Positions 73 to 7,804 of a DNA stretch of 7,804 nucleotides are shown here, piece by piece; within the stretch, counting starts at the first letter, position 1; each line of letters starts with the position of its first letter. A program made the translations under genes and the position numbers. Below the pieces are notes generated by a model. The model did not search any database. It was not told the DNA's origin and was given only the letters and a program-made list of their open reading frames with translations. The stretch is from NCBI GenBank assembly GCA_023539445.1, contig JAKCEW010000021.1:1-7804 (forward strand), written 5' to 3'. The stretch is from Candidatus Terraquivivens yellowstonensis (GTDB lineage: Archaea; Thermoproteota; Nitrososphaeria_A; Caldarchaeales; Wolframiiraptoraceae).

Positions 73-981
73 TTAAAAGGTCAGTGTTTTTTTAAGAAAA
101 GCTTCTACTTCATCCCGATACGGAAGTGAAGGTTGGGCTCCTTTACGGGTGGTGGCCAGGGCTCCGGCGGCATTAGCCCAAAGAATTGCTTCCTCTATGG
201 AGCGTCCCTCACTTAATGCTACTGCCAGTGCTCCGTTGAATGCGTCCCCTGCAGCGGTTGTGTCTACCGGGATTACAGGAAACGCAGGAAAGTGACGGAC
301 TTTTTTCTTCGTAATTAAATAGGCCCCTTCAGCCCCAGCTTTGTAGACGACTTGGCTAACTCCGAGATCTAAAAGGTCGTAAGCTGCCTTTTTTATTTCT
401 TTTTTGCCTGTAATAGTGATCAATTCGGCTTGATTAGGAGTAAGAATATCCACTCGCTCAAGTGGAAGGGTTGAAAGATCTTGAGCGGGAGCTGGGTCCA
501 GAATAACCAAAGGGCTTCTTTGAGGCAGATTTCGAAGCACGTAAGCAACAGTTTGCAAAGGGATTTCGAGTTGGAGAAGAAGAATTTCAGCGGCTGCCAG
601 TTTAGGAAGTACACGTTCTACGTAACTGGTATCCACTAAAGCGTTAGCACCAGGCACATAGACAATCGCGTTCTTCCCGTCCTTCGTAACCCAAATCGAA
701 GCAATTCCTGAATGAGTATTTTGTTCCCGTTCGACGAAATCGATACCAACTCCGTTACTTTTTAGGCTTTGTAAAAGCTCCTGTCCAAAGACGTCATTTC
801 CTACTTTGCCGCAAAAAAAGACTTGTGCCCCAAGACGAGCGACTGCAACAGCCTGGTTGGCCCCCTTACCGCCAGGATACCGAGCAAAAGAAAAGCCTTT
901 TAACGTTTCTCCTAGCTGAGGAAATTGTGGTACCTCGAAGACGAAATCTATGTTAATGCTTCCCAAGACTGTAACTATCAT
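73..981 (-). CDS. rbsK: Ribokinase, PfkB family carbohydrate kinase
   Basis: A cytoplasmic ATP-dependent kinase expected to convert D-ribose to ribose 5-phosphate for the pentose phosphate pathway. The 302 residues match the usual RbsK length. Visible signatures are GSINID at 7-12 (ribose contacts), the PfkB glycine motif PGGKGANQA at 36-44, the QLEIP segment near 137-141, NPAPA-like DPAPA near 162-166, and the C-terminal PfkB motif [11 protein letters not shown] at 240-250, whose D246 is the expected catalytic base and whose AAGD forms the anion hole. The tail [19 protein letters not shown] follows E. coli RbsK almost residue for residue, which favours ribose over other PfkB substrates. The ATG starts 2 bases after the upstream aminotransferase stop and has only a weak ribosome site, so translation is probably coupled. 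It is the last gene of the leftward operon. No rbsD or rbsABC is nearby, so free ribose may not be the imported compound. Confidence 0.93.
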
Positions 982-983
982 TT

Positions 984-2453
984 TTAATCTCGATTGATGG
1001 AAAAGAATTTTTCAGCTGTAGTGAAAACTTTATCAAAGATTTCCAAAGCACGATCGATAGTGCTTCTACGAATAGTAAGAGGTGGTATTAGTTGAAAACG
1101 GTTGTAATAATACCCACCTCTTTCGAACACCAATCCATTTTTAACGCATTCGTCAAGAATAAAACCTGCTTCCTCAGAAGCAGGTTCACGGGTTTCCCTA
1201 TTTTTTACGAGTTCTATACCGATATAAAGGCCACGTGCATCGATGTGCCCAATCAATGGGTGGCGTTCTTGTAACTCTTTAAGTCCATTATAAAAGTACT
1301 CACCCTTATGTCGCACCTCGGCAAGGAACTCCTCTTTTGTGACAATTTCTAATACTTTATTAGCTGCAGCACAAGCTAGCACGTTTCCTGCTTGTGTAGA
1401 AACATGGGCTCCTGGTCCCCATGCTTCCAATATGTCAGCCCTGGCTATTACAGCAGAGAGTGGTAAGCCCCCACCAAGCGCCTTAGAAGTAAGGAGCATA
1501 TCAACTTCAACCCCTTCCCACTCTGTGGCCCACAACTTTCCGGTGCGACCGAGACCAGTTTGAATCTCGTCCACGATTAAGAGAATACCATATTTGTCAG
1601 CTAATTGGCGAAGTAATTTCAAGTATCCAGCTGGAGGGATAATATAGCCAGCCGAGCTTTGAAAAGGTTCTACTAAGAAGGCGGCTACATTGGTAATATC
1701 CTTTTTGACTTCCCGATAGGGCGATTCTTTGCTTAAAAAGTAGTATTCAAGGTATTCTTCAAGTTTTTTAAGACAATATTCTCCCTCATCTTCGCCAGCA
1801 GGAGGACGCCCAAAAGGCGAGCGGTAAGGATAGGGAAAGGGAAAGTACCCTACCGCACTGTCATGTGGGGGTACAGGATAGAAATAGGCCCACATACCAC
1901 CTTTCCCTGTGAAAGGCATAGTTCCATACGTTACTCCATGGTAATCGCCAAAGGCTGTTAGGATAAAGGGGCGGCCAGTATAGTAACGAGCGGCACGAAC
2001 AGCTAACTCCACAGCATCTGCTCCGGTTACCCCGAACACCACTCGTGCTTTGCCACCTTTGATAGGGGTGATTTGCGTGAGCTTCTCCGCAAGCTTAATA
2101 CGCTCAGGATGTGGAAGATCAAAATAATGGACAAGTTTTATAGACTGTTCTTTTATAACTTCGGCAATGTCACGATTACATTGACCAAGAGCTGAAACAG
2201 AGAAACCTGCCAATAAATCGATATACTCTTTGCCATCTACATCAATTAGTACATCATTTTCCGCTCGCTCAACAATTGGAGGCATTTTAAAAAGCGCAAG
2301 CCCCACTTGTCCATATGATTCTACTGAAAGCCATCTTCTAGCCCAGTTTTTGCCTTGTTCTCCAAAAGATGATTCGGAGATACGCTGTTCGATTTCGGCT
2401 TCGGTTAGCTTAAGTTTTTGCCTTTGTATTTCTGTTCTTCCATTAAAAAGCAT
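984..2453 (-). CDS. Class III PLP-dependent aminotransferase (aspartate aminotransferase fold I)
   Basis: A cytoplasmic pyridoxal-phosphate enzyme of the acetylornithine/GABA aminotransferase family, 489 residues from the chosen start. Hallmarks are the phosphate-binding loop TGADAVE (about 143-149), YHG at 171-173 stacking on the cofactor, the [11 protein letters not shown] segment near 259-269, [12 protein letters not shown] with D295 contacting the pyridine nitrogen, and SKALGGG with K324 as the Schiff-base lysine. T353 in STQAGN is the expected phosphate ligand from the partner subunit. Residues about 190-250 form an extra aromatic/proline-rich stretch ([12 protein letters not shown]) followed by a charged helix, as in archaeal-type broad-substrate aminotransferases and class III amino-acid racemases. 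Transaminase and racemase therefore cannot be told apart here. The reading frame opens 45 bases upstream at 2498, but the ATG at 2453 follows a perfect AGGAGG and avoids overlapping the lacI-type gene, so it is preferred. The amino donor is unknown. Confidence 0.88.
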
Positions 2454-2472: not shown

Positions 2473-3453
2473 TTATTTTTTCCTACATGATTCTCCACGA
2501 ATTATTCGAACTTTTAACATGCAAGTTTTATTGTCGTACTTTAAAAATTGGCGCATAGCTATTTGCCCCATATTAAAAGCAGGAATTTCTACTGTAGTGA
2601 GTTTAGGGCGCAGAAAGTCAGACCAGGGAATATGGTCAAACCCCGTCACTCCGAGATCTTCCGGGACCCGCAGCCCATTATCCTCAGCAGCGCGGACTGC
2701 GCCGATGGCCATCAAATCGTTCCCGCACATGATGGCATCGACCTGGTGACGTTGGATAATTTTTTGAGCCTGTTCATAACCACTTTCATAAGTGAAATTC
2801 CCATGTCTTACATCTAAAGGCTTCAGCCCCGCTTTCGCCAACGCTTCTAAGAAACCTTTAAGCCGATCCTCTGCAGTGCTTACTTTCGCTGGCCCGGCAA
2901 TATAAGCGATCTTTCGATACCCAAGCTTAATAATATACTCAGTAAGCTTGCGACTACCCTCCTTGTTATCTGCTTCCACTACTGGCAATCCTTCAACACG
3001 TCGATCAGCCACTATGATTTTAAGCCCCTGTCGAAGCAGACGTTGGACGCGATCCATAACTGGCTGATTAACTGGAATAAAAATAATTCCCTCCACTCCT
3101 TCAGCAAGCAAAATAGCTAAATAACGTGATTCTTTTTGTATAGAGTGGTTCGAGTCACAAATCATCGTCGAATATCCTTTAACAAAAGCTATTGATTCGA
3201 CGCCACGGGCAAAAAGCGCAAAAAATGGATTCGAAATGTCAGGAAGGAGCACGGCGATAGTCTGAGTTCGGCGTTGACGCAAAACACGAGCTGCCTTGAC
3301 TGGGGTGTATTCAAGCTCTTTTATTACTCGGAGTATTCGATCTTTTGTTTCTGGGCGCATATGTCCAACGTCACAGCCGTTAAGCACCCTTGACACCGTG
3401 CTCGGTGAAACTCCTGCTAGCACAGCTACATCTTTTATCGTTGGTCGCTTCAT
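2473..3453 (-). CDS. LacI-family transcriptional regulator, probable local repressor
   Basis: A 326-residue DNA-binding protein of the LacI/GalR family. The N-terminal helix-turn-helix is clear (TIKDVAVLAGVSPSTVSRVLNG, 5 to 26), followed by the hinge region (LEYTPVKAARVLRQ) and a periplasmic-binding-protein-like effector domain from about residue 63 (TIAVLLPDISNPFFA) to the end. GNDLMAIGAVRA and GVTGFDHIPWSDFLRPKLTT are typical late signatures. The overall pattern resembles RbsR/CcpA-like repressors, and the rbsK neighbour makes a ribose-type effector plausible, but this is inference. The hinge lacks the usual Asn (YxPN), which is Val here. The gene leads the leftward operon. It starts only about 15 bases after the predicted transcription start and has no visible Shine-Dalgarno, which should keep its level low. 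An in-frame TAG six codons upstream excludes a longer start. A LacI-type site overlaps the predicted transcription start, so autoregulation is likely. Confidence 0.94.
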   Translation of the reverse strand: MKRPTIKDVAVLAGVSPSTVSRVLNGCDVGHMRPETKDRILRVIKELEYTPVKAARVLRQRRTQTIAVLLPDISNPFFALFARGVESIAFVKGYSTMICDSNHSIQKESRYLAILLAEGVEGIIFIPVNQPVMDRVQRLLRQGLKIIVADRRVEGLPVVEADNKEGSRKLTEYIIKLGYRKIAYIAGPAKVSTAEDRLKGFLEALAKAGLKPLDVRHGNFTYESGYEQAQKIIQRHQVDAIMCGNDLMAIGAVRAAEDNGLRVPEDLGVTGFDHIPWSDFLRPKLTTVEIPAFNMGQIAMRQFLKYDNKTCMLKVRIIRGESCRKK

Positions 3454-3455
3454 TT

Positions 3456-3469
3456 GGAAATCGTTACAC
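3456..3469 (-). promoter_or_regulatory. Candidate LacI-type operator of the leftward operon
   Basis: On the minus strand the 14-mer GTGTAACGATTTCC has a central CG and the half-site GATTTCC. It begins 5 bases after the -10 box and covers the expected transcription start. As a palindrome it is poor (4 of 7 pairs), but its right half is identical to that of the site at 3941-3954 and its position relative to the promoter is the same. Binding here would block transcription of the regulator, aminotransferase and ribokinase genes. Confidence 0.6.
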
Positions 3470-3474
3470 TACAA

Positions 3475-3503
3475 AGTATAGCGTGACCTAAATTTGATGT
3501 CAA
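3475..3503 (-). promoter_or_regulatory. Sigma-70/sigma-A type promoter of the leftward operon
   Basis: On the minus strand TTGACA (3503-3498) is separated by exactly 17 bases from TATACT (3480-3475). The predicted start, 7 bases past the -10 box, is near 3468 and leaves a leader of about 15 bases before the repressor ATG at 3453. It is the only strong promoter seen for the three leftward genes. Confidence 0.85.
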
Positions 3504-3578
3504 GATACACTAAGCTTGTCGAAACAATGAATAAAAGGACCTATTTTAAAGTTTAAAAATTGTTTTTGCACTTGCAAT

Positions 3579-3609
3579 CTTGATCATTGGATGCCATCAG
3601 ATGATCTAG
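3579..3609. repeat. Imperfect 15-base inverted repeat around a single C
   Basis: CTTGATCATTGGATG (3579-3593) and CATCAGATGATCTAG (3595-3609) are reverse complements at 12 of 15 positions, centred on C3594. A smaller palindrome, TTGCA-ct-TGCAA, sits just left of it at 3566-3577. The repeat lies immediately before the transposase remnant. It could be a leftover of the element, a regulator site or a transcript hairpin. The rest of 3504-3578 shows nothing recognisable beyond AT-rich sequence. Confidence 0.4.
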
Positions 3610-3891
3610 TTCAAGGGCGGTGGGAAAGTGCGAGATCCAAGGAGAAGGGAAATATTGAAAGCTTTTCGTTTAGATCTTTATCGGCTGCGAGCAGTGGGCG
3701 AGGGAATATTCGGGGCCCTGAAAACGAGGCTCAACGGGAGGCTCAGGAATCTAAGCGTTTCTAACACCCAAAAGGAGGCCCTTCTCCTTGGGGTGTGTTA
3801 TGTGCTGCGGGTATTTCTGGCCTTATTCCGTTGGCTTTTAAGTCTCCGCTCTTCCAGGTCAACAAGAAGGGCCATCCTCGCCTTTTCTTAG
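3610..3891 (+). pseudogene. C-terminal remnant of a DDE transposase (IS4/IS5-like)
   Basis: The frame is open from just after a TAG at 3607 to the TAG at 3889-3891, with a GTG at 3628 as its only early start candidate. The core of the reading (VGEGIFGALKTRLNGRLR, then KEALLLGVCYVLR) resembles the last part of IS4/IS5-type transposases, where the final catalytic Glu lies in an (R/V)VEGVFGxLK motif and is followed by a CYNLR-like helix. Here GEGIFGALK would carry that Glu. Everything upstream, including the two catalytic Asp regions, is missing, so it cannot be an active transposase. The last 25 or so residues are low-complexity and basic and are probably not original coding sequence. The assignment to a family is tentative. 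It sits inside the divergent promoter region, and its end is only 16 bases from the -35 box of the transporter operon. Confidence 0.55.
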
Positions 3892-3907
3892 ACAAGCCCC
3901 ATAATAC

Positions 3908-3935
3908 TTGACAACAATAAGAGTTTGATTATAAT
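3908..3935 (+). promoter_or_regulatory. Consensus sigma-70/sigma-A promoter of the transporter operon
   Basis: TTGACA (3908-3913) and TATAAT (3930-3935) are both exact consensus boxes, with a 16-base spacer. Transcription should start near 3942, about 31 bases before the chosen ATG at 3973. Two perfect boxes imply high unregulated activity, which makes control by the overlapping operator important. Confidence 0.85.
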
Positions 3936-3940
3936 GTTTA

Positions 3941-3954
3941 GTAAATCGATTTCC
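3941..3954 (+). promoter_or_regulatory. LacI-type operator at the transporter operon start
   Basis: GTAAATCGATTTCC is a near-perfect palindrome (6 of 7 pairs, with AAATCGATTT exact) centred on CG, as is typical for LacI-family operators. It starts 5 bases after the -10 box and covers the predicted +1. Its half-site GATTTCC is identical in sequence and placement to the one in front of the LacI-family gene, so that protein is the natural candidate ligand. Confidence 0.7.
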
Positions 3955-3958
3955 TTAA

Positions 3959-3967
3959 GGGAGGTGG
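3959..3967 (+). promoter_or_regulatory. Strong ribosome binding site deciding the solute-binding protein start
   Basis: GGGAGGTGG, with GGAGG at 3960-3964, lies 8 bases before ATG 3973. The longer in-frame start at 3925 falls upstream of the -10 box and of the predicted transcription start, so it cannot be used from this promoter. Confidence 0.85.
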
Positions 3968-3972
3968 TCGTT

Positions 3973-5535
3973 ATGAAGTTCAGCTTGTTGGTGGTAGGTT
4001 GTTTAGCTGCGGTTCTTACTGCGATACCAAGGTTGACAACAGCTTCTACTCCAATAGAAACCTTGTTTGTTGGAGTTACAGAAGAACCAACGATGCTAGA
4101 TCCTGCAATTGATTACACGTTTGGTAGCATGCCCGTGTTCCGAGCGACATACGAAAGACTTGTTACATATAACTCCCGCACAGAAATGGTCGAACCGGAG
4201 TTGGCGGCTTCCTGGGAGATATCGGAAGATGGTTTAGTATATACATTTTACCTTCGTCCCGGTGTTAAGTTCCATGACGGTGCGACTTTTGATGCGTATG
4301 CGGTAAAGACAGCCTATGAGCGGGTTATGACAATCAATGAGGGGCCTGCTTGGATGCTGACAACATACGTAAAGTCCATTGATGTGGTTGATGATCTAAT
4401 TGTCCGTATTAATCTCCAACATCCCTTTGTTCCGTTTTTGCGTGTTCTAACTTCGTATTGGGGCATGGGCATTCCTAGTCCAAAAGCGATCGCGGAGCAC
4501 GTCGAGGATTTAGGAAAGGCTTTCTTCCGTGATCATGTTGTTGGGACGGGTCCGTATAAATTAGTTGAATGGGTGAAAGGGCAATACATAATGCTCGAGC
4601 GATTTGAGGACTATTGGCGTGGATGGCCTGGAAAACACCTCGATCGTATTGTAATACAGATAGTGCGAGACACAACAACGATGGCGATGCTTTTGGAACG
4701 CGGAGAAATAGATATTGCGTATGGAATCCCTGTTGCTGAGTTGGAACCTCTTAAGGCGAACCCAGAAATTGTTGTTAATGTCTATGATACGTATACAACG
4801 AACATGATTGCCATGAATACCACTAGACCTCCCCTTAATGACGTCCGCGTTAGACAAGCCCTGTCCTATTCCTTCGACTACGATAGTGCGATGGAGGTCT
4901 TCGCTGGTTATACCAAGCCTCTTGTTGGCCAAATTCCGCCTGGTTTGCTGGGATATGATCCTACTTTGCCTCGATACGTTTTTGACCTAGACCGAGCTAG
5001 AGAACTTTTAGCCCAAGCCGGCTATCCTCATGGCGGATTCACACTGGAGTATACATGGGTGACAGAAGAGCCAGAGGGGCGCCGCATAGGTATTCTTTGG
5101 CAAGAGGCGCTTCGCAAACTCGGAATTGAATTAAAAATTACTGAAGTCACGGTAGCTGGGCACTGGGATAGAATATCACATCCTGAGACAACCCCCGATT
5201 TAGCTAACTACAGGTGGAGTATTGACTTCCCTGATGCGTTATCGATTCTCCTACCTCTATATCATGGAGATTATGCTCCTCCCGTCGGTTACAACATTTC
5301 AAGGTGGTCTAATCCACGCATTAACGAACTTATTGACAAAGCCGGAATAGAGCGGGATGAGGAGGTGCGAAAACAAATACTTAGGGAAATACAGCTACTT
5401 TTACTTAACGATGCGCCGAACATCTGGATTACAACTGTACCAGTAGCTATATGCATGCGCAAAAATGTACATGGTTTTGTGTTTGAACCAGCTTACTTCT
5501 CATCGTTCAACTTTTATAACATGTATAAAGACTGA
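3973..5535 (+). CDS. ABC transporter substrate-binding protein, family 5 (Dpp/Opp type)
   Basis: A 520-residue extracytoplasmic receptor that delivers solute to the two permeases encoded next. Residues 1-24 form a signal peptide: a short basic start, a hydrophobic run, and a likely signal peptidase I cut after TTA. Cys10 is in a VVGC context, but the hydrophobic stretch before it is too short for a normal lipobox, so a soluble periplasmic protein is favoured. Family landmarks are EEPTMLDPA near 37-45, LAASWEIS at 77-84, LRPGVKFHDG at 94-103, VGTGPYKLVEW at 190-200 and the PPLNDVRVRQALSYSFD block at 286-302. Length is normal. Family 5 receptors bind peptides, but also nickel, oligosaccharides, opines and glutathione, so the substrate is open. 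With a ribokinase and an aminotransferase under the same apparent operator, a non-peptide or conjugated sugar ligand deserves consideration. It is the first gene of the rightward operon and is followed by a strong hairpin. Confidence 0.92.
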   Translation: MKFSLLVVGCLAAVLTAIPRLTTASTPIETLFVGVTEEPTMLDPAIDYTFGSMPVFRATYERLVTYNSRTEMVEPELAASWEISEDGLVYTFYLRPGVKFHDGATFDAYAVKTAYERVMTINEGPAWMLTTYVKSIDVVDDLIVRINLQHPFVPFLRVLTSYWGMGIPSPKAIAEHVEDLGKAFFRDHVVGTGPYKLVEWVKGQYIMLERFEDYWRGWPGKHLDRIVIQIVRDTTTMAMLLERGEIDIAYGIPVAELEPLKANPEIVVNVYDTYTTNMIAMNTTRPPLNDVRVRQALSYSFDYDSAMEVFAGYTKPLVGQIPPGLLGYDPTLPRYVFDLDRARELLAQAGYPHGGFTLEYTWVTEEPEGRRIGILWQEALRKLGIELKITEVTVAGHWDRISHPETTPDLANYRWSIDFPDALSILLPLYHGDYAPPVGYNISRWSNPRINELIDKAGIERDEEVRKQILREIQLLLLNDAPNIWITTVPVAICMRKNVHGFVFEPAYFSSFNFYNMYKD

Positions 5536-5592: not shown

Positions 5593-6594
5593 ATGAGCAA
5601 ATATATTGTAAGGCGATTGGCATTTTTGGTAATAACGCTTTTAGGAGTACTAACAATTACTTTTTTTCTGTCTCGAATATTACCTGGTGATCCTGCCCGG
5701 CTTGCAGCGGGAATACGTGCTGGACCAGAGCAAGTAGAAGCCCTCCGCAGATCATTAGGTCTTGATCGCCCTCTTGCTGAACAATACGTACGCTACATAA
5801 CGAGCGTAATGCGTGGGGACCTCGGGATGTCCATTCGCACACGACGACCTGTTAGGGCAGACTTGGTAGAATACTTTCCTGCCACTGTAGAACTAACTAT
5901 TTTTGCAACATTTCTTTGTATCCTGCTCGGAATTCCTTTAGGCATTTTTTCTGCGGTTCGACAGGAAACATTGGTGGATCATGTATTACGAGTTGCAGCG
6001 GTAGCCGCGGTTTCAATGCCCAGTTTCTGGCTTGGTTTGCTCTTTCAGCTTGTGTTTTTCCGCTGGCTTGGAATACTCCCAGCAACGGGTCGTGTTGGGC
6101 TAGGCTTCCGACCAACTCACATAACGGGATTGTACGTGCTCGATAGCATCATAACTCAAAATTGGGCTGCATTAGGAAGCTGTCTCAAGCACTTGGCGCT
6201 TCCTGCAATGGCGCTTGCGGCAAGTTCAGTTGCACAGATCAGTCGCATGATGAGATCGAGCTTACTTGAAGTACTTTCTCACGACTATGTGCGGACTGCA
6301 CGCGCAAAGGGATTGAAGGAAAGCGCGGTCATACTAAAACATGCGCTTCGCAACGCATTGTTGCCGACGCTAACTGTTATTGGTCTTCAGACTGGCGTTC
6401 TTCTATCAGGTGCAGTCCCAGTCGAGGTTGTTTTTAGTTGGCCTGGAATTGGTTTATATGCGGTTCAATCAATTGTCTTTGTAGATTTTATGGCCATTCT
6501 TGGTGTTACTCTCCTCATGACTATTGTATATTCAGGGATAAATTTGATTGTCGATGTACTTTATGGAGTACTTGATCCTCGAATCCAATACTGA
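5593..6594 (+). CDS. ABC transporter permease, DppB/OppB type
   Basis: A 333-residue inner-membrane subunit of a family 5 importer. The start MSKYIVRRLAFLVITLLGVLT is the classic DppB N-terminus, leading into the first membrane segment and the SRILPGDPA motif (about 28-36). A periplasmic loop with SLGLDRPLAEQYVRYI and GDLGMSIRTRRPV follows. About five more hydrophobic segments come after it, and the EAA coupling loop spans about 231-258 (DYVRTARAKGL to LLP), which docks onto an ATPase. The C-terminal FSWPGIG and DVLYGVLDPRIQY are also typical. A longer reading from TTG 5560 would start inside the hairpin and lacks a ribosome site, so ATG 5593 is chosen, although no good Shine-Dalgarno precedes it either. 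The stop codon overlaps the ribosome site of the second permease. Confidence 0.95.
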   Translation: MSKYIVRRLAFLVITLLGVLTITFFLSRILPGDPARLAAGIRAGPEQVEALRRSLGLDRPLAEQYVRYITSVMRGDLGMSIRTRRPVRADLVEYFPATVELTIFATFLCILLGIPLGIFSAVRQETLVDHVLRVAAVAAVSMPSFWLGLLFQLVFFRWLGILPATGRVGLGFRPTHITGLYVLDSIITQNWAALGSCLKHLALPAMALAASSVAQISRMMRSSLLEVLSHDYVRTARAKGLKESAVILKHALRNALLPTLTVIGLQTGVLLSGAVPVEVVFSWPGIGLYAVQSIVFVDFMAILGVTLLMTIVYSGINLIVDVLYGVLDPRIQY

Positions 6595-6599
6595 GGTGG
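6593..6599 (+). promoter_or_regulatory. Ribosome binding site of the second permease, overlapping the previous stop
   Basis: GAGGTGG begins within the TGA stop (6592-6594) of the first permease and lies 10 bases before ATG 6610. The overlap suggests translational coupling and equal production of the two permease subunits. Confidence 0.75.
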
Positions 6600-6609
6600 G
6601 GTACTAGCA

Positions 6610-7476
6610 ATGTTGTGGTGGGTACGAGAGCGACCTCTGGCAACGATAGGTGCAATGATTTTAATCTCCATAGGATTACTTGCGGCTATGGCAGATATTC
6701 TTCCACTTCGTGATCCCAAGGCTGTGAACATCTCCGAAAGGCTTCTACCGCCTTCAGCTAAGCACCCTATGGGCACTGATGATATGGGGCGCGATATTTT
6801 AAGCCGAGTCATTTATGGCGCGCGGACATCACTTCAAGTCGGCATCCTGGTTGTCTTTGTGGCTGCAGTTGTAGGTTTGATCGTTGGTTTAGTGGCTGGG
6901 TACTTTGGGGGCCTTGTAGATGAGCTTATGATGCGGATTACAGATGCTTTTCTTGCCTTTCCAGGACTAATCTTGGCAATGACTATCGCGGTGATTCTTG
7001 GCCCTGGTATTCTGCCGACTGTTACCGCCTTATCGCTCTCTTGGTGGCCATGGTATGCACGACTAGTTCGCTCAGAGGTTCTTATTTATAAACAATCTGC
7101 TTTTGTAGAAGCTGCACGAGCAACCGGGGCTTCAATTTTCAGAATTCTCTGTATCCACATTCTCCCCAATTCACTTTCGCCAGTGATTGTCCAGGGCACG
7201 TTAGACATGGGATATGCAATTCTCACAACATCTGCTCTTAGTTTTATCGGTTTAGGCGTTCAAGAACCTACTCCTGAATGGGGTGCTATGCTCAATATTG
7301 CCCGTAAGTATTTACTCTCAGCATGGTGGTATATTACCTTCCCAGGCTTGGGGATATTTATAACTGTACTTGCAATTAACCTTATCGGAGACGGGATACG
7401 TGACTATCTCGATCCCCGGAGCAGAAGAAGTAGACGCTTAGCTATTGTGCTGGGTAGAAATAAAAAGAATGAGTGA
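6610..7476 (+). CDS. ABC transporter permease, DppC/OppC type
   Basis: A 288-residue inner-membrane partner of the preceding permease. It has an N-terminal membrane anchor (about 11-30) and the DppC signature HPMGTDDMGRDILSRVIYGA (52-71). The membrane domain shows ITDAFLAFPGLILAM (110-124), the EAA loop EAARATGASIFRILCIHILP (167-186) with the conserved Gly, and SFIGLGVQEPTPEWGAML (211-228). The C-terminus ends with GDGIRDYLDPR followed by a basic tail of about 17 residues, a little longer than usual. The family importer needs two ATPases (DppD and DppF type). None follows within the window, where the remaining 328 bases are transposon and toxin-gene debris. The ATPases must be encoded elsewhere or were separated from the operon. 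Confidence 0.95.
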   Translation: MLWWVRERPLATIGAMILISIGLLAAMADILPLRDPKAVNISERLLPPSAKHPMGTDDMGRDILSRVIYGARTSLQVGILVVFVAAVVGLIVGLVAGYFGGLVDELMMRITDAFLAFPGLILAMTIAVILGPGILPTVTALSLSWWPWYARLVRSEVLIYKQSAFVEAARATGASIFRILCIHILPNSLSPVIVQGTLDMGYAILTTSALSFIGLGVQEPTPEWGAMLNIARKYLLSAWWYITFPGLGIFITVLAINLIGDGIRDYLDPRSRRSRRLAIVLGRNKKNE

Positions 7477-7524
7477 GTCAATTTGTGCATAGCGTAGTGT
7501 TTATCGCATCCAATAAGTACATAG

Positions 7525-7548
7525 TGCCCTATTTAGTGTGTAAGGGCA
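7525..7548. repeat. Small inverted repeat downstream of the transporter operon
   Basis: TGCCCT (7525-7530) pairs exactly with AGGGCA (7543-7548) around a 12-base loop. It could be a weak 3' structure for the transporter mRNA or the inner edge of the insertion sequence remnant, whose reading frame ends at 7533. No T tract is present. The stretch 7477-7524 shows nothing I can assign. Confidence 0.25.
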
Positions 7549-7704
7549 ACATGGTGGTTTCCTATTTGGATTTCCGCAAATCCTTGGAGCCTGCGCTCCC
7601 CATGCCTCGCCAAGCAGGTATAGGAGCTTTTCTACGGTGTCTTCCTTGCAGAATGCCGCCACCACCTTCGTCCCCCTCTTTATCTCCTTAACCAACCGTT
7701 CCAG
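7533..7704 (-). pseudogene. C-terminal fragment of an IS256/mutator-type transposase, frameshifted
   Basis: Read leftward from 7704, the minus strand gives LERLVKEIKRGTKVVAAFC, then EDTVEKLLYLL and WGAQ. This matches the end of IS256-family transposases, where (N)xLERxxKEIKRRTxVV follows the catalytic region and a WG...LRGFAEIQ segment closes the protein. After WGAQ, near 7590-7600, the homology continues only in another frame as LQGFAEIQIGNHH, stopping at TAA 7535-7533. A single-base frameshift has therefore occurred. All three catalytic residues lie in the missing N-terminal part. To the right of about 7705 the transposase similarity ends abruptly at a PIN-domain reading on the other strand. 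The fragment is more G+C-rich by eye than the transporter genes, as expected for an unrelated mobile element. Confidence 0.72.
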
Positions 7705-7804
7705 GAAGCTCCGAGGGCGCGGCCAAGCTGGGCGGAGATCTTATGGAAAAAACATCCTCTTCGGGCCCTTGATGCCCTGCATCTCGCCTCAGCGCTTTTC
7801 CTAA
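7624..7804 (+). pseudogene. PIN-domain (VapC-like) C-terminal fragment, runs off the window
   Basis: A plus-strand frame is open from a TAG at 7621 to the window edge. Its last part, WAEILWKKHPL then RALDALHLASALFL (about 7732-7803), is the typical third motif of PIN-domain ribonucleases, where the Asp of DALHLA is an active-site metal ligand. VapC toxins cut RNA and are paired with an antitoxin, which is not seen here. The first 28 or so codons overlap the transposase fragment on the other strand and do not look like PIN sequence. The N-terminal half with the first catalytic Asp is missing, so this is probably a toxin gene cut by the insertion element. Whether an intact C-terminus follows cannot be seen. 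Confidence 0.6.

Follow-up and report, generated by a model that had tools for sequence, protein, structure and literature searches.

Local regulons controlled by a LacI-family protein are a well-known kind of system, and the locus described here is very probably one of them. The described regulons that it most resembles are those of the AdeR, HpxR and UriR groups, which are local and autoregulated and, as here, combine CG-centred operators with nucleoside or nucleobase genes (PMC4052901). These groups involve other proteins and other phyla than our locus; AdeR and HpxR are likened to it by description alone, and against the UriR model our regulator scores 175 bits, where the cut-off is 550. 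The ribose repressors of the RbsR type give the best NCBIfam resemblance (230.7 bits) and share with the locus a ribokinase in the regulon and a CG-centred operator. However, the regulator misses the RbsR equivalog cut-offs (NF047341, 230.7 versus 382 bits; NF007743, 190.8 versus 531 bits), and its clade is accompanied by Bmp, family-1, family-5 and other transporters, not only by RbsABC. CcpA, CytR and PurR have the same domain layout and CG-centred palindromic sites, but the regulator falls below all curated cut-offs for them, and its contig carries two strong sites only, a local rather than a global pattern as far as is visible.

Operator spacing offers another point of comparison. A 2014 survey of the LacI family (PMC4052901) recorded a peak of overlapping operators at a distance of 13 bp, upstream of 110 operons, that it could not account for structurally; for GntR of the gammaproteobacteria this spacing is conserved. 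Relatives of our regulator carry operators at the GntR distance, whereas at our locus each of the two promoters has one operator. In the papers that we searched, a limited set, we found no description of this regulon or of its operator series in Bipolaricaulota.

The contig and its genes

The window, by which we mean the whole 7,804-bp stretch of DNA analysed, is a complete contig (C17 of 35) of a 1.16-Mb assembly (G000). The 16S rRNA of this assembly scores 1465.5 bits with the archaeal model RF01959 and 1079.6 bits with the bacterial model, and a gene beside it reads, by eye, like a replication-factor-C subunit. The contig itself carries a LacI-family gene and consensus sigma-70 promoters. 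In tetranucleotide usage it correlates with the assembly at r = 0.35, compared with 0.50–0.66 for equal-sized pieces of the large contigs, a difference to be read alongside some other short contigs of the assembly that correlate equally poorly. Neither for the regulator nor for the binding protein did we find a close orthologue among 398 genomes of the assembly's own phylum, where the weak matches lay mostly over the effector-domain region; in a plasmid collection, the regulator matches reached at most about 41% identity among the matches listed. The closest regulators come from metagenome-assembled genomes (MAGs) named Acetothermia (69%, 61–66%) and from a short contig of a Thermanaerothrix MAG (64%). 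Judged by these comparisons, the contig is bacterial, most likely from Bipolaricaulota and misbinned into an archaeal assembly; a lateral transfer to the archaeon is the less probable explanation. It should leave the assembly before any archaeal LacI regulon is reported. Since the contig is out of place in this archaeal assembly, we decided against testing the regulon in the host genome and used the assembly as background sequence for matrix scoring. The Thermanaerothrix contig (L016, NZ_CALIMF010000019.1, 8,843 bp) has a ribokinase at 65% identity and a regulator whose branch lies within the Bipolaricaulota clade; it may likewise be misbinned.

The features of the window are collected in Table 1. 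The regulator combines a LacI helix-turn-helix (PF00356, 61.9 bits) with a periplasmic-binding-protein-like effector domain (PF00532, 114 bits), each above cut-off, and this helix-turn-helix is the sole one of the LacI type in the assembly. The window regulator and its orthologues agree in the recognition helix VSPSTVSRVLN and in the hinge, both of which are conserved. The regulator and aminotransferase genes are separated by 19 nt, and the ribokinase gene follows after a further 2 nt. On the transporter side, an ATPase gene is absent beside the binding protein and permeases, both in the window (5593–7476) and in the syntenic operons L130–L132, so the ATPase must be encoded elsewhere in the genome. 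The end of the window (7501–7804) holds short broken frames, 64 aa on the minus strand (without a Pfam match) and 72 aa on the plus strand, possibly left over from a transposase, and a repeat at this place would account for the assembly break.

Table 1. Genes and predicted control elements of the window, in order of position.
Feature	Position	Strand	Evidence or remark
Ribokinase, third gene of the regulator operon	73..981	-	TIGR02152 above cut-off, 326 vs 300 bits
Class-III aminotransferase, second gene of the regulator operon	984..2453	-	PF00202; 70-83% orthologues in 12 relatives
LacI-family regulator, 326 aa	2473..3453	-	PF00356 and PF00532
Predicted operator of the regulator operon, GTGTAACGATTTCC	3456..3469	-	Second-best matrix score; equals operator 1 of orthologous promoters (GTAACGATTTC, 11/11)
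-10 box TATACT	3475..3480	-
-35 box TTGACA	3498..3503	-	Spacer 17
Possible transposase remnant between the promoters	3628..3891	+	Weak PF01609 (DDE_Tnp_1), E = 0.16, below cut-off
-35 box TTGACA	3908..3913	+	Spacer 16
-10 box TATAAT	3930..3935	+
Predicted operator of the transporter operon, GTAAATCGATTTCC	3941..3954	+	Best matrix score; palindrome
Shine-Dalgarno AAGGGAGGTGG, ahead of the ATG at 3973	3957..3967	+	Sequence reading
Family-5 solute-binding protein	3973..5535	+	PF00496; 66-67% in G474-G476
ABC permease, DppB/NikB type	5593..6594	+	PF00528 and PF19300
ABC permease, DppC/NikC type	6610..7476	+	PF00528; NF045474 above cut-off

A shared -10/operator module and its orthologues

The initial annotation of this DNA had proposed that its two divergent promoters share one module, running from the -10 box through a LacI-type operator. 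On recount its figures are exact: TATACTTTGTAGTGTAACGATTTCC (minus strand, 3480–3456) and TATAATGTTTAGTAAATCGATTTCC (plus strand, 3930–3954) are identical at 19 of 25 positions without gaps, and at both promoters a CG-centred 14-mer begins 5 nt past the -10 hexamer. If the start site is taken to lie about 7 nt after the -10 box, both 14-mers cover +1. Both promoters are near-perfect by the sigma-70 consensus, the plus-strand one matching at 12 of 12 positions with a 16-nt spacer and the minus-strand one at 11 of 12 with a 17-nt spacer. The plus-strand site is a good palindrome (6/7 symmetric pairs) and the minus-strand site a poor one (3/7); the asymmetric form of the latter, GTAACGATTTC, is found again in orthologues.

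We then asked where else such sites occur. Across the 1.16-Mb assembly, exact GTRWAWCGATTTCC is found in two places only, both of them the window promoters. With up to two mismatches allowed it occurs 47 times, versus 62 for a reversed control, which is background level. The assembly holds no further copies of the intergenic spacer.

A regulator orthologue (E <= 1e-70) is present in 29 of the 100 genomes of the phylum to which Acetothermia bacterium 64_32 belongs (Bipolaricaulota), with 45–70% identity to the window regulator in full-length matches. Upstream, nearly all of these orthologues follow a common plan: TTGACA, about 17 nt, a TATAAT-like box and GGGGTAACGATTTCGGAAAACGATTTCC, with the ATG directly next in many. 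GGGGTAACGATTTCGGAAAACGATTTCC consists of two CG-centred operators whose centres are 13 bp apart. The operator consensus derived from the orthologues, GGAAAACGTTTTCC, is even in length and CG-centred, and the window sites are imperfect versions of it. The motif is thus conserved upstream of orthologous operons: in 33 loci, comprising orthologous or paralogous LacI genes with upstream sequence, the best tandem-operator score is 18–27 of 27, whereas shuffles average 12.8 and reach 18 at most. The set includes paralogues of one genome and loci from closely related genomes, so the independent cases are fewer than 33.

From the orthologous promoter sites, with the window left out, we built a symmetric matrix and scored with it the window together with 415.6 kb of host sequence (about 423 kb in all). 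Position 3941 (score 16.6) ranked first and position 3456 (15.3) second, and every background position scored lower than both. The top two were the same when the matrix was rebuilt without the two nearest orthologues. The two sites singled out in the initial annotation by their exact motif are therefore also those that the orthologue matrix ranks highest. Its further argument, that identical geometry points to selection, stands in part. Inside the window the geometry is indeed identical, with 11 nt from the -10 box to the central C of the operator at both promoters, but relatives space their operators otherwise: the distance to operator 1 is mostly 7 nt (5 in some), and operator 2 sits 13 bp beyond it. 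A search for a tandem operator at the window promoters found none (scores of 16 and 17 of 27), and each has a single operator.

Gene order in relatives and the role of the regulon

In three relatives, G475, G474 and G476 (loci L130, L131 and L132), the genes for LacI, family-5 binding protein, the two permeases, aminotransferase and ribokinase form, in this order, one co-directional cluster led by LacI. Identity to the window is 50–53% for LacI, 66–67% for the binding protein, 71–75% for the permeases, 76% for the aminotransferase and 52% for the ribokinase. Ahead of the cluster lies a TATAAT box with three operators, namely the tandem pair and one more before the ATG. Because the same six genes share one operon behind such operators in these genomes, the proposal that regulator, aminotransferase, ribokinase and transporter belong together is strongly supported, and by this gene order they very probably constitute one regulon. 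What began as a guess from one sequence is now a regulon with support, in a bacterial phylum that has been little studied.

The divergent arrangement of the window was found in no relative, and the transporter-side site accordingly rests on the matrix and on the one-operon relatives rather than on an orthologous divergent promoter. In the window the six-gene set is split into two divergent operons, and it looks mosaic. In a tree, the regulators of G398, G437 and G401 form a group with the window regulator (support 83/85 and 94/82), and of these the G398 and G401 regulators adjoin Bmp-type transporters. The nearest ribokinase is also from G398 (69%), while the nearest binding protein and permeases are those of G474–G476 and the nearest aminotransferases those of G427, G433 and G434 (83%).

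As to the pathway, ribose and amino compounds had been suggested initially; we prefer nucleoside or nucleobase catabolism, because the clusters of relatives carry enzymes and transporters of this kind together with ribokinase and aminotransferase orthologues. In their LacI-led clusters, ribokinase occurs with dihydropyrimidinase and adenine deaminase (both above cut-off) and with a PreA-like dihydroorotate/dihydropyrimidine dehydrogenase that has a 4Fe-4S domain. More amidohydrolases, an inosine-uridine nucleoside hydrolase and Bmp/PnrA-like binding proteins are found there as well, as is a xanthine-dehydrogenase-like molybdoenzyme, whose match (E = 1.6e-213) falls short of the cut-off set for the selenium-dependent model. 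Orthologues of the window aminotransferase lie in the same clusters, 10–13 kb downstream of LacI, in G484, G488, G493 and G405. The regulon thus probably serves nucleoside or nucleobase catabolism that feeds the ribokinase. The ribokinase would take the released ribose, and the aminotransferase may act on an amino product of base breakdown, for which beta-alanine is our guess. On this account an aminotransferase without an assigned substrate and a family-5 transporter are now tied to nucleoside and nucleobase catabolism.

Loci L191, L192, L193 and L194 are large LacI-led clusters with dihydropyrimidinase, PreA-like dehydrogenase, amidohydrolases, aminotransferase and ribokinase, and with a xanthine-dehydrogenase-like protein that carries its 2Fe-2S domain as a fusion. 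Their content makes them candidate nucleobase degradation operons.

Family-5 binding proteins mostly have peptides, nickel and similar compounds as ligands. Together with an aminotransferase that resembles racemases and 4-aminobutyrate aminotransferases, such a protein would suit a peptide or amino compound as effector and a regulon for amino-acid use. We consider this unlikely, although it is the alternative that survives best: a ribokinase is encoded inside the window operon, and in relatives the same type of regulator accompanies nucleobase and nucleoside enzymes, nucleoside-type transporters and orthologues of the very aminotransferase found in the window.

We therefore return to a nucleoside-type effector. 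The CG step of a LacI-family operator is the hinge-helix site, and +1 directly past a strong -10 box is a classical place for a repressor. Since both operators lie over the transcription start, a dimer bound to them would obstruct RNA polymerase at either promoter, and we infer that the regulator binds these sites and represses rather than activates. We are confident, short of certainty, in a model in which both 14-mers are operators of the LacI-family protein encoded at 2473–3453, a dimer of which would keep both promoters blocked until a nucleoside-type inducer appears, and in which the whole is a misbinned bacterial locus. A dimer on each operator, just downstream of the sigma-70 -10 box, is what LacI-family proteins in general would lead one to expect (PMC4052901). 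The minus-strand promoter would drive regulator, aminotransferase and ribokinase, making the system autoregulated, and the plus-strand promoter would drive the binding protein and the two permeases. Both operons would turn on together when the regulator is released by the imported compound or a breakdown product of it; a nucleoside, or the ribose moiety of one, is the likeliest candidate.

Paired promoters and operator spacing

The likeness of the two promoters might also stem from copying during rearrangement of an ancestral single operon, and not from selection. Rearrangement is plausible, given that the six genes form one operon in relatives and that the spacer may contain transposon debris, a part of the initial annotation that our searches support weakly (the DDE_Tnp_1 match, at E = 0.16, is below cut-off). 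Outside the -10/operator module, however, identity falls to 1–5 of 10 per 10-bp block, and the -35 to -10 spacers differ in length. That the similarity ends exactly at the module borders indicates a shared functional module rather than a recent copy of a longer stretch, and on this ground we ruled out promoter duplication as the sole cause. Moreover, the window regulator and LacI of the one-operon relatives are not sisters, and had copying happened, the survival of functional bases only would in itself amount to selection. We judge copying in place of selection to be improbable.

Slightly less probable again is a reading in which the regulator promoter is the sole true target, by autoregulation, and the site before the transporter genes is a palindrome that arose by chance close to a strong promoter. 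The lack of a divergent layout among relatives favours it, leaving the plus-strand site without an orthologous divergent promoter for comparison. Yet this site is the top position in about 423 kb by the window-free matrix, it overlaps +1 of a 12/12 promoter, and transporter genes stand under these operators in G474–G476. Mere chance likeness of two strong sigma-70 promoters, to which the -10 boxes contribute 5 of the 19 matching bases, can practically be dismissed, as a 19/25 match was reached in only 1 of 500 dinucleotide shuffles (two 100-bp upstream regions compared), the operator part was recovered independently from orthologues, and the matrix ranking in practice refutes it.

Two classical dimers should not fit both operators of the strict 13-bp tandems seen in relatives, whereas the window regulator is a member of the same clade on single operators, placed at the same distance past the -10 box at both promoters. 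We suggest, tentatively and with more doubt than conviction, that this clade provides a natural model of the 13-bp operator overlap left unexplained in the LacI family, and that in it the tandem is a separable add-on and not a requirement. If this is true, the add-on would be a second binding mode or a kinetic buffer. The clade adds about 30 natural cases of 13-bp overlapping operators and one single-site variant.

Loci L106–L140 have strict 13-bp tandem operators directly before the LacI start codon, and their leaders are often very short, without an obvious Shine-Dalgarno sequence. Together they offer good material on the overlapping-operator mode that lacks an explanation. G474, G475 and G476 each encode two paralogous LacI proteins (about 59% and 50–53% identical to the window regulator), with the same tandem operator at both promoters, so that cross-talk of the two regulons is possible.
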